Shown one piece after another: positions 4,737 through 9,658 of a stretch of DNA of 64,000 nucleotides. The number at the start of each line of letters is the position of its first letter. Positions within the stretch are counted from its first letter, which is position 1. The notes under the pieces are model-generated. The model was not told the origin of the DNA. It did not search any database and worked only from the letters and a program-made list of their open reading frames with translations. The DNA comes from Synergistaceae bacterium. GTDB lineage: Bacteria > Synergistota > Synergistia > Synergistales > Aminobacteriaceae. Position numbers and translations under genes: made by a program. The stretch spans positions 1 to 64,000 of the forward strand of contig JAFSXS010000060.1 of NCBI GenBank assembly GCA_017443945.1, read 5' to 3'.

Positions 4737-6059
4737 TCATTTGGCCTGACTAACTCCCTTCAGGCGTTGCACCCCTTGCACACTAACAGGCGGAGGGATG
4801 GCGGATTCTCGCAAAGCACGGAGAAAAATTCCCCTTGCACCGTTGTAATCACGGTCTAATGTGATATTGCCGTCTCTGATAAATTTCCCCGGAGACTTTA
4901 TTTCGCCGTTCCATGAACAAGTTTGCGAGGTCCAGTCCTCATTTTGCGCGATAATTTTTCGTCCGTACTGTTCGGCCTTAGCTCTGATAAAATCTTGAAA
5001 TTCTGAGTGTGCCCGTGTGAGCATTTCTCTCATCGTGCGCGAGTAAAATTTTTCGGTCATGTCTGCGTTAAATTCCGGCAGTGCAATAACGTCAAAATTT
5101 TTAACGATAAATAATGCTGCTTTGCGGGTTAATTCTTCAGTGAGATTCATGATTCGCCAGTAAAGCCGGTTATATGCCTTCTTCATTTTTGCGCGCTGTC
5201 TGTGATTCGCAAGATTCATCCTATTATATAAGTCATCAAGATAAACGCAGAGGCTGCAAATTTTCGAGAAAGCATTACGGCCGATTTTGCCGCACGAGTC
5301 AAGACTGTAGAACGTCATGAAATTTCTAATGCCCGGATCAAGAGAGACCGCGCGCCCTTGCTTATCGGACGCAATAGAAATTTTTACGGGAACGCAGATA
5401 AACCATCGTCCGGCCTCATAAGTGAGTCTGCAATCGCCTTCAGGAACGGGAATATTTTCCGCATGAGTCATTTTCCCAAGAAAGTGCGAATAAATGCCGC
5501 GTTTGCCCACTGATGATTTAGGAATGTAGAGAGTCTGTCTTGCGTCTCGTCTGGCTCTGAAATTTGCGCTGTTATTGTTTGCTGAAGTCTGCTTGTAGCT
5601 TATGCATGCGTCTCTTACAGCAACAGATTTAATTTGATAGGGGACATTCTGCGCCCAGTCGGGTAAATCTTTTAGCAGCCAGCGTTTAATCTCCAGCCAG
5701 TCCGGATTATTGCCGCGCGTGAGAAATTCAAGTGTCCGGTTAAAGACGTAACGTGCAGTGCCAAGCCATTGATTCAAAATATCCTGCTGCTTTGAGTCGG
5801 GATAAATGCGAATCTTTCGTGAGCGTAAGACCTCGTGAGGCTCTGACTCTTTTGCGTTGTAATATGCGCTGTAAGGTAGGCTGTGAAACTCTGACTCGAA
5901 CCATGAATTATTAATTGCAGACAACGAGTCTAAATTTTCAGATTCATAATTGAGTGAGTCTAACGTCCTGACGCTAGGCAGCCACAAAAACGGCGATAGA
6001 GTCATGCATGTTTCGTCCCAATATCCGCGAGTGTGTGAGAGTGCATTAAATTTTTTCAT
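4737..6059 (-). CDS. tnpB: TnpB-family RNA-guided nuclease (IS605/IS1341 OrfB-like), zinc ribbon degenerate
   Basis: 440 residues. The core starts at about residue 79 (RSRKIRIYP, the usual N-terminus of OrfB) and contains the RuvC-like catalytic residues D241 (SLDPG), E329 (ALPEF) and D402/D404 (LDRDYNGA). The segment that is normally a four-Cys zinc ribbon (TSxTCSxCG...CxxCG) here reads TSQTCSWNGEI...FIRDGN, so only Cys381 of four is kept. An additional N-terminal extension of about 78 residues (contains SPFLWLP and NSWFES) precedes the core. TnpB proteins are transposon-encoded nucleases guided by an omega RNA from the element's 3' end. No tnpA lies nearby, so the element is not autonomous by itself. 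The start at 6059 overlaps the stop of an upstream small ORF as ATGA, which suggests coupled translation. Confidence 0.85.
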   Translation of the reverse strand: MKKFNALSHTRGYWDETCMTLSPFLWLPSVRTLDSLNYESENLDSLSAINNSWFESEFHSLPYSAYYNAKESEPHEVLRSRKIRIYPDSKQQDILNQWLGTARYVFNRTLEFLTRGNNPDWLEIKRWLLKDLPDWAQNVPYQIKSVAVRDACISYKQTSANNNSANFRARRDARQTLYIPKSSVGKRGIYSHFLGKMTHAENIPVPEGDCRLTYEAGRWFICVPVKISIASDKQGRAVSLDPGIRNFMTFYSLDSCGKIGRNAFSKICSLCVYLDDLYNRMNLANHRQRAKMKKAYNRLYWRIMNLTEELTRKAALFIVKNFDVIALPEFNADMTEKFYSRTMREMLTRAHSEFQDFIRAKAEQYGRKIIAQNEDWTSQTCSWNGEIKSPGKFIRDGNITLDRDYNGARGIFLRALRESAIPPPVSVQGVQRLKGVSQAK

Positions 6060-6442: not shown

Positions 6443-6510
6443 GGGACTCCTGGGCGGGGGGTGCGGGGGGGCGATAGGGGCCCCGCATACTGAATCACAA
6501 AATTTTTTTA
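6443..6510 (+). repeat. G-rich intergenic element, copy A
   Basis: Contains GGGCGGGGGGTGCGGGGGGG, then AGGGGCCCCGCATAC and CACAAAATTTTTTT. Two related elements sit at 34832-34914 and 51375-51440 with the same order of parts (GGGCGGGG, AGGGG, optional CCCC, CAYAC, AAATTTTTT). Lies between hicB and tnpB, together with the repeat and AT-rich DNA filling 6060-6507. Function unknown; the strand has clear G-quadruplex potential. Confidence 0.55.
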
Positions 6511-6807
6511 CGCTGCAATGTGCTTTGACTTCAATTCGTCGCGTACAGGAGGCATGAATATATCAATTAGTGCGAGAGTCTCATAATCTTCAAGTTCTAT
6601 ATCATGAAGTAGTGAAGGTTCCGGGATAATATCTCCGTCGCGTTCCATTGAGAATAAATGCAGTCCGAGAGATTCGCGTGCTTGTGTGAATGCGTCAGAG
6701 TCGTTATTGCCTTGTGAAGTGCAGCCGGGGAGGTCAGGGAAAGCGACTCCGACTTGTTCAGGTACATCATAGCCGAAAATTGCGGGAAAAATATAATAAT
6801 CTTTCAT
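6508..6807 (-). CDS. hicB: HicB-family antitoxin
   Basis: 99 residues: KDYYIFPAIFGYD...VGVAFPDLPGCTSQGNNDSDAF, the partial RNase H-like fold of HicB antitoxins, followed by DIFMPPVRDELKSKH. HicB neutralises the mRNA interferase HicA and often represses the operon. SD AAGGAGG lies 10 nt before ATG 6807-6805. The hicA reading frame ends 14 bp upstream (6822), in the usual hicA-hicB order, but hicA is frameshifted (see next entry), so this may be an orphan antitoxin. There is no DNA-binding domain long enough to be certain at its C-terminus. Confidence 0.85.
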   Translation of the reverse strand: MKDYYIFPAIFGYDVPEQVGVAFPDLPGCTSQGNNDSDAFTQARESLGLHLFSMERDGDIIPEPSLLHDIELEDYETLALIDIFMPPVRDELKSKHIAA

Positions 6808-7622: not shown

Positions 7623-7847
7623 ATGAAGTGTACAGTAAAAATTTTATGGGATCCTGAAGCGGCCGTATGGATTACAAAAAGTGAAGAGCTGCCCGGACTT
7701 TTGCTTGAATCAGGTTCATACGACGCACTAATTGAACGCGTAAAACATGCGATTTCAGATTTCATTGACGTTGACGAAATTGACAAGATAGATTACTGCG
7801 ATATAAATTTTGTAGGGTATCGTCTCGAAAGGGTGCTAGTAAGTTAG
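7623..7847 (+). CDS. DUF1902 / HicB-like antitoxin protein
   Basis: 74 residues: CTVKILWDPEAAVWITKSEELPGLLLES then an amphipathic helix (DALIERVKHAISDFI). This is the DUF1902 form of the HicB half-fold, usually paired with a HicA-type toxin immediately downstream. SD AAGGAGG 9 nt before ATG. Downstream only a broken toxin remnant is present (7850-7920), so the gene appears to be a solitary antitoxin. Confidence 0.75.
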   Translation: MKCTVKILWDPEAAVWITKSEELPGLLLESGSYDALIERVKHAISDFIDVDEIDKIDYCDINFVGYRLERVLVS

Positions 7848-7849
7848 CG

Positions 7850-7920
7850 GCTGAATACGAGAAAAAATTACGAAAAATTTTAAGGCAGCACGATGTTATT
7901 TTCTAAGACAGGGAAAAGGA
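7850..7920 (+). pseudogene. Remnant of a HicA-like toxin N-terminus
   Basis: Right after the DUF1902 stop, one frame reads AAEYEKKLRKILRQHDVIF followed by TAA (7904-7906); the -1 frame then continues LRQGKGE before stopping. AEYEKKLRKIL...RQGKG-like is how HicA-type partners of DUF1902 proteins begin, and the catalytic His and the rest are missing. Deletion plus frameshift, then the next gene's SD. Short, so the family assignment is inferred from the position. Confidence 0.5.
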
Positions 7921-7931
7921 GAAATTTAACG

Positions 7932-9658
7932 ATGAAAAAATATTACTTGCTATTATCGCTGCAATTTTATTTTATGTGTCTGCATTTGCGACAGAAAGTC
8001 CCTATAACGTGAAATCCGGAATTTATTACAGTCAGCAATGGGGAATTTACATCGCAAATATTATCGAGAAGGACGGCAAAATTATTAATGTCATAATTGA
8101 CAGGCTAGCGAACGGTAAAAGCAGCAAAGAACTTCACAATAATTACGGCATAAAATCTGTAAGCACTTTCAATAAAGACTGGTGGGAACAGGTCGCCTAT
8201 TATGAAAGCTGGATAGTTAAAAACGGCCTTGAATCCCTCAAGACAGACGAAAAGGGTCATGCGCTGAATCCTGATTTAATTTCCGGAGCAACTATTAGCG
8301 TGGCCGAATTATCTCAAGCCGTAAAAAATGCTACTGATGGAAAAATTGAAGACAGCAGCTACACTCTCAAGACCGGCACTTCTTATAATGATATATACGG
8401 GCTTTATGTAGCAAATGTTATATTCAAGGACGGCGAAATTATTAAAATCTTGCTGGACTTCATAACTAAAGACGGCCAAAGCAGCAAAGAAAAATACGAC
8501 AATTACGGCATGAAAAATATTAGCTCAATTAATAAAGACTGGTGGGAGCAAGCAGCATACTTTGAAGACTGGATATTGAAAAACGGCGTTAACTCAGTGA
8601 AATATGACAGTCAGGGCAAAGCTCTTAACGTAGATTTAATTTCTGGTGCTACAATGTTAATTGATGATATGACGTTAGCTGTTATTGACGCATTGAAAGA
8701 TTCTACAACATTGATATATTCAGACCATGAACCTTTAGGAAATATGCGAACAAAATTTTTGAAAGATGTATTTTTTACAGCTATAAACGAGCAATCACAT
8801 GGTCGCATAAAAATTAATTCTCACTGGAACGGTGAAATAAGTATCAGCTATGACGCATTAAAAACTGTTAAAGACGGCTCAAAAGCTCAAATTGCAGTGA
8901 TAGTGCCGGAATATTTTGCTAAAGAATTGCCGTTACACCAAATTTTTAAAAGTTTCCCCGTTGGCCCTACTGGTCAGGAGCAAGTAAAATTTTTCAGCAG
9001 CATTTATAAAGAAGTTCCCGAATTATTACAGGAAATCGAATCGCAGGGATTGCACGTTATTTTTGTTTCGACCGGTTATCCAGTTGCGTTTTTCAGCTCT
9101 AAGCTGATGAGTGATTTACAAGCTATCAAGGGTCAAAAATGGAGGAGCGCGAGTTTTTGGCACAAAGATTTTCTCACAAATGCCGGAGCAACGCCTATCA
9201 CAATGCCGTGGGGTCAGGGAGTTTTTGACGCGCTTAATAACGGGACTCTTGACGGCCTAATGGTAAATATTGACAGCGGCTACGACATTAACGCTCATAA
9301 GGCAGCACCGAATATTTTAACGTCGCAAAAATTGTGGCTCGGACATGAATATATAATCGCAATGAATAAATTTGCGTGGGAAAAACTTTCGGACTCAGAT
9401 AAACGCGCAATCGAGAAGGCCGCAGAAATTTCGTATTCAAAGCTCGGTGAAGTAATGAATAATTCTTATTGTCGCCAACTTGAAATTTTGAGAGATTCCG
9501 GAGCCAATGTCCAAATATTGACCGATCAAGAAATTAAATTCTGGGAAGATACTACAAACTTTGAGGTTATCCAAGATAAATGGCTTAGTGAGCAGGCTGT
9601 AAAATCTGCTGACGTTCTCAATAAAATTAGGCGTTACATAAAAAATTTTATAAAATGA
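7932..9658 (+). CDS. Exported tandem FMN-binding-domain / TRAP (DctP) solute-binding fusion, frameshift in signal peptide
   Basis: The frame from about 7941 to 9658 encodes KILLAIIAAILFYVSAFA, a complete signal peptide, followed by the mature protein. ATG 7932-7934 has a good upstream SD (AAAGGAGAAA) but is followed by six A's; seven are needed to enter this frame, so as written the start is out of frame by one base. The in-frame fallback start is GTG 7976, inside the signal peptide. Counted from that GTG (560 aa): two about 120-residue FMN_bind-like repeats, residues 10-120 and 130-240, each with KDGKI/KDGEI, DWWEQ and DLISGAT (103-106 and 223-226; the Thr is the site ApbE-type enzymes flavinylate); then a DctP-like periplasmic binding domain, residues about 247-555 (YPVAFFSSK, WRSASFW, MPWGQGVFDALNNGTLDG). 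No DctQM permease or apbE is nearby. Confidence 0.75.

Follow-up and report, generated by a model that had tools for sequence, protein, structure and literature searches.

Several multi-flavinylated FMN_bind proteins have been described, such as those surveyed by Meheust 2021 (PMC8238504), SaFMN3/CbFMN4 (PMC10339131) and Listeria PplA, and tandem FMN domains are viewed as possible electron wires (PMC8238504; PMC11334425). The main text of the eLife flavinylation survey (PMC8238504) makes no mention of TRAP, solute-binding or substrate-binding, and DctP is mentioned in none of the flavinylation papers that a literature search retrieved. TRAP solute-binding proteins (PF03480), such as TarP, have a carboxylate arginine whose role is known (SiaP Arg147, TarP Arg149; PMC3610893). 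FMN_bind-FAD_binding_2 extracytoplasmic reductases, of the urocanate and fumarate reductase type, use FMN_bind as the electron inlet of a secreted protein, and type-B carboxylesterases (PF00135) include p-nitrobenzyl esterase and fumonisin esterase. For most flavinylated proteins with several FMN domains we know of no role.

The window, which is the whole stretch of 64,000 nucleotides analysed here, belongs to a genome of 2.4 Mb in 114 contigs, whose nearest relatives with a name are MAGs labelled Synergistaceae or Synergistales bacterium, recovered from red deer, roe deer and goat. Its ORF at 7976-9658 (plus strand, like all parts of the gene given below) starts with GTG and encodes 560 aa, with FMN_bind repeat 1, repeat 2 and then a DctP (TRAP receptor) domain. 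This fusion, which the sequence-only reading rightly spotted as two SGAT-bearing repeats ahead of a DctP-like domain, is real and unusual. As in the multi-flavinylated proteins, the family has tandem FMN_bind domains, [S/T]GA[S/T] motifs, ApbE in the genome and no fused catalytic oxidoreductase, but what sets it apart is the attached TRAP receptor, with or without a hydrolase.

FMN_bind (PF04205) matches two stretches of the 560-aa protein in the Pfam scan with 32.6 bits (E 1.3e-7), above the curated cutoff of 22 bits. Scored singly, repeat 1 (8003..8341) reaches 22.6 bits, barely over the cutoff, and repeat 2 (8363..8701) reaches 16.9 bits, under it. The two repeats are 51% identical across 111 aa (E 5e-43), and their profile matches the canonical FMN_bind domains of the same genome, which are those of RnfG and two FMN_bind-FAD proteins, with 93.7% probability and E 2e-7, SGAT aligning on SGAT. 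The D-x-x-SGAT motif is present in both repeats and is retained in relatives wherever the repeat is retained. The SGAT codons are located at 8282..8293 (residues 103-106) and 8642..8653 (residues 223-226), and the predicted flavinylated residues are Thr106 and Thr226, as had been numbered before. The AlphaFold2 model, built from a 22-row alignment (pLDDT 83.8), has three strands followed by helices in each repeat, with the flavin loops at low confidence, and a complete TRAP-receptor domain. Domain search and structure prediction, which had been proposed as checks of the fold, were both run and, together with the profile match, place the repeats with FMN_bind. Matches of repeat 2 to PvuII in the PDB search cover about 41 residues and were judged to be chance.

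The DctP domain (8705..9655) matches PF03480 with 77.2 bits (E 5.6e-22 to 1.7e-21, residues 264-527, Pfam scan) and the NCBIfam model TRAP_S1 with 61.6 bits against a cutoff of 50, and its AlphaFold2 model matches TRAP receptors. By alignment, Arg390 in GQKWR (codon 9143..9145) occupies the position of the TRAP carboxylate-binding arginine, and its equivalent is found in every aligned member of the DctP subfamily and in the TRAP outgroups. The possibility that the fusion conceals a reductase domain was considered and rejected, as its Pfam scan finds neither FAD_binding_2 nor another catalytic reductase domain; in this the window protein differs from the FMN_bind-FAD_binding_2 reductases.

Candidate partners for flavinylation and electron supply are encoded in the same genome. 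ApbE, whose absence the sequence-only reading had named as fatal to its proposal, is present in a single copy (E 3.7e-77) and occurs in 42 of the 43 genomes of the genus. The RNF complex, for which a search had also been advised, is present, with subunits A, C, D, E and G identified in an operon unlinked to the fusion gene, and two FMN_bind-FAD_binding_2 proteins are encoded elsewhere in the genome. From the motifs and ApbE, we infer that both SGAT threonines are flavinylated.

The beginning of the gene is damaged as assembled. The earlier reading placed the start at ATG 7932, which is out of frame with the fusion ORF: it reads MKKYYLLLSLQFYFMCLHLRQKVPIT and then a stop, the frame shutting after 26 codons, and a reading from this codon was rejected. 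The original start (7932..7940) comprises this ATG and an A6 run (7935-7940), and comparison with L063 and L064 shows that a base is lacking behind the run. The sister locus L063 has ATGAGAAAATTATTA where the window has ATGAAAAAA-TATTA, and since L063 carries one more base there, the window gene as assembled has a frameshift within the signal peptide. A ribosome-binding site, AAGGAG at 7916..7921, serves ATG 7932, and none is found ahead of GTG 7976. The signal-peptide coding stretch ILLAIIAAILFYVSAFA (7940..7990) lies in the ORF frame and has no in-frame start. A one-base slip at A6 would restore MKKILLAIIAAILFYVSAFA, but programmed frameshifting was rejected in favour of a deletion or an assembly error, which is likelier given the shortness of the run and the lack of conservation of the site among relatives. 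The gene as it stands would make no secreted fusion, and export of the protein is improbable in this genome. As to the proposed location outside the membrane, the relatives L064 and L047 have intact signal peptides, and the window copy, which has no in-frame signal peptide, may not reach the outside. L064 is an intact FMN-FMN-DctP protein of 570 aa with its signal peptide, and L063 has frameshifts of its own. The dN/dS between the window and L063 is 0.07 for the FMN part and 0.12 for DctP, which indicates that the 560 remaining codons were under strong purifying selection until recently; therefore the start lesion would be recent, or an assembly error.

The surroundings of the gene point to a displacement. 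Upstream and outside the fusion is a DUF1902 (HicB-like) gene (7623..7847, plus strand; PF08972 E 1.1e-14), followed by a hicA-like gene (7836..7922, plus strand, start approximate) that is truncated where the FMN-DctP gene starts. Its relatives match up to window position 7922 and then run on as GKGDHDIWFSP..., which is missing in the window. In L063 the fusion gene lies directly 3' of an alpha/beta-hydrolase-Amidohydro_2 gene, which has AAAGGAGAAATTTAACAATG at its end and ends AAAGGAGAAATTTAAC; the window retains GGAGAAATTTAAC (7918..7930, plus strand), a remnant of the last amidohydrolase codons (GEI-stop), and upstream of it has the hicA-like gene. From this remnant and the cut hicA-like gene we conclude that the window copy joined the DUF1902/hicA-like pair beside the rpsL operon without the rest of its cluster, and on this comparison it is a displaced member of the cluster, moved into the truncated hicA-like gene. 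No other genes of the FMN/DctP cluster are near the window copy. A second cluster copy in the same genome was rejected as well: no close copy of the cluster amidohydrolase or esterase is found in it, the carboxylesterases it has being distant (34-40% identity) and its matches to the amidohydrolase weak. Farther upstream of the fusion, the minus strand encodes an IS605-type OrfB/TnpB-like gene (4737-6059) and a HicB-like antitoxin (6508-6807). Promoter and terminator scans gave nothing useful above shuffled background. The same genome also has, at L087:5473-8787, a 1104-aa ORF that joins Amidohydro_3 to a carboxylesterase, a further large, secreted-looking hydrolase fusion that is unrelated to the FMN/DctP family.

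The FMN pair is matched in 16 of the 43 genomes of the genus. A profile search of 188 Synergistota genomes finds the FMN subfamily in 15, each of which belongs to the same ruminant-gut Synergistaceae genus, with none outside it at E 1e-6. Architectures were taken from 18 loci, the relatives being metagenome assemblies, some of them fragmentary or frameshifted. FMN-FMN-DctP is found in the window, L064 (intact) and L063 (broken), and FMN-FMN-carboxylesterase-DctP in L047 (1074 aa, PF00135 E 9.2e-120), L048 (second repeat shortened) and L056 (decayed). L050 and L051 have an FMN-FMN gene and a metallo-hydrolase-Cu_amine_oxidN1-DctP gene, and L049 and L052, together with the frameshifted L057, have an alpha/beta-hydrolase-DctP gene with an FMN gene downstream. 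The order is reversed, DctP-FMN, in L054, whose frame is broken upstream; L053 has an FMN gene and then a DctP gene as neighbours, and DctP is alone in L055, L061 and L062. L059 is decayed, as are L056 and L057. In most species carrying the FMN subfamily, FMN and DctP are fused or adjacent.

The middle domain of L047 and L048 resembles type-B carboxylesterases, with most of its length aligned (1c7i E 3e-87 and 8s6d E 2e-84 in the PDB) and GESAG present; unlike them, it sits between FMN_bind repeats and DctP, and it is missing in the window copy. A single-sequence structure model of the L047 fusion had a pLDDT of 32 and was set aside. The esterases of L047 and L048 are 87% identical, whereas their DctP domains are 60% identical and placed in different clades, as expected from module exchange, to which unequal rates could contribute. 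Taken together, these comparisons indicate that the FMN pair, DctP and the secreted hydrolases are modules exchanged within this genus.

Further features accompany these loci. In L050 (7043-9103) and L051, the Metallo-beta-lactamase-fold hydrolase, Cu_amine_oxidN1 and DctP form one 686-aa ORF, and the separate FMN-FMN gene beside it has an extra SGAT in its first repeat. The single FMN_bind domains at L052:6318-6674 and L053:6223-6630 are apparent hybrids, with the front half of repeat 1 and the end of repeat 2, and look as if recombination deleted one repeat. Recurrent neighbours encode MarR, aldo/keto reductase, nitroreductase with a signal peptide, Amidohydro_2, PNPOx-like, SDR and S9/S15 hydrolase proteins. 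The signal-peptide nitroreductases (L047:2853-3494 and homologues) recur beside FMN/DctP genes, and it is uncommon for a flavin enzyme to lie outside the cytoplasm. At L055:4833-7711 the DctP gene, and in L064 the entire MarR-to-FMN-DctP cluster, stand between two Band_7-type (hflK/hflC-like) genes, which may mark an insertion site.

The DctP domain has the full fold and the conserved carboxylate arginine of TarP and other TRAP solute-binding proteins, and its nearest structural matches are receptors for cinnamates and for other cyclic or aromatic carboxylates. In the Foldseek search, the modelled domain best matches TarP with cinnamate (E 2.2e-21), the top structures being TarP with cinnamate, coumarate, ferulate and caffeate and then other aromatic-acid receptors. 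The sequence search gives the pyroglutamate receptor DctP6 (2pfz) first, with a Desulfovibrio receptor and TarP next. The TarP-like model, the kept arginine and the associated hydrolases point to aromatic carboxylates freed from plant esters as the putative ligand class, an assignment by fold rank, which is a weak guide, and by sequence at about 20% identity. Unlike TarP, the window DctP is the C-terminal module of a larger protein and has no DctQ/DctM neighbour, and its subfamily is monophyletic, a single clade (100/100) separate from three transporter-type receptors. L024 and L026, which are among the nearest outside receptors, adjoin DctQ-like genes, recognised by sequence and position; no DctQ or DctM genes were recognised beside the related loci. 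A TRAP permease was looked for and rejected, with none beside the fusion or within the window. The sequence-only reading took this as pointing away from ordinary transport; the observation stands, and the pointer is weakened by about a dozen strong DctM genes elsewhere in the genome and by the DctQ-like genes beside near outside receptors. An extracellular reductase that binds its own acceptor, as it suggested, is a possible reading, but the fusion has no domain for catalytic reduction, and the solved receptors nearest to it bind cinnamates, tryptophan-like or cyclic carboxylates for uptake.

Our preferred interpretation, put forward tentatively and at somewhat less than even confidence, is that the family makes a secreted protein in which an FMN pair for electron transfer is linked to a recruited receptor for aromatic carboxylates, as part of a kit for hydrolysing plant aromatic esters and reducing them. 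The two FMN domains, covalently loaded by ApbE, would act as an electron wire, and the receptor domain would have been recruited from an aromatic-carboxylate TRAP transporter. The partners within the genus would be the secreted esterases and other hydrolases, the signal-peptide nitroreductase and the amidohydrolase. The hydrolases would release aromatic acids from plant esters, the DctP domain would capture the released acid, and electrons reaching the envelope by RNF or another route would travel along the FMN pair and reduce either the compound or a partner reductase; the electron donor and the reduction step are the presumed parts of this scheme. The domains, motifs, ApbE, RNF, module exchange, purifying selection and intact relatives with signal peptides support it. 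Against it stand the lack of a catalytic reductase domain, a ligand class assigned at about 20% identity with DctP6 as best sequence match, the window copy without in-frame signal peptide, the frameshifted L063 and decayed L056, L057 and L059, the unlinked RNF operon, and a window genome without a close copy of the cluster amidohydrolase or esterase. A stronger form, in which DctP, by closing on its ligand, gates the passage of electrons from the two covalent flavins either to the aromatic acid that it has captured or to a partner enzyme, we consider improbable.

The damage at the start also suits a relic, a cluster fragment that came to lie beside rpsL, was deprived of its signal peptide when one base was deleted, and is disappearing. 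The junction with the truncated hicA-like gene and the amidohydrolase-end remnant, the further frameshifts of L063 and the lack of other cluster genes nearby agree with this, but the 560 codons are open and under strong purifying selection, and in a metagenome assembly the lack of one base may reflect an error or a minority variant. We regard a relic as a minority possibility. Slightly less probable still is product-capture uptake, where DctP would catch the acid released by hydrolases and pass it to a TRAP permease of the genome, with the FMN pair as an independent carrier, merely carried along or serving the nitroreductase, and no coupling of redox to ligand. Such uptake is favoured by the fusion of DctP to hydrolases of three unrelated types, whether FMN is there or not, by about a dozen strong DctM genes, by the DctQ-like neighbours of near outside receptors and by the retained arginine. 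However, no permease gene was noted beside the loci read, docking on a permease may be impossible for a receptor tied to a 500-residue esterase or to two FMN domains, and FMN and DctP keep together in most species with the FMN subfamily. That the repeats are structural or binding domains without flavin, in a plain receptor, is very improbable: the weak single Pfam scores and low model confidence around the flavin loop would allow it, but both repeats keep D-x-x-SGAT, as do the relatives that retain the repeat, ApbE is present, and the profile matches canonical FMN_bind.

What is new here is a predicted multi-flavinylated protein whose exchangeable partners are a TRAP receptor domain and, among relatives, hydrolase domains as well. 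The repeated linkage of an FMN pair with a ligand receptor and secreted ester hydrolases offers testable substrates, which are plant phenolic esters, and a testable mechanism. If the gated, redox-coupled receptor were true, hydrolysis, capture and reduction would take place on one secreted chain, a platform that evolves by swapping hydrolase modules. Rumen Synergistaceae are a group known to break down plant toxins (PMC12366334), and in them a TRAP receptor domain is found apart from any transporter operon, as a module that can be swapped. In sister species these parts recur in other combinations with secreted ester-cutting enzymes, a pattern that suggests a little-known kit by which plant aromatics would be handled outside the cell.
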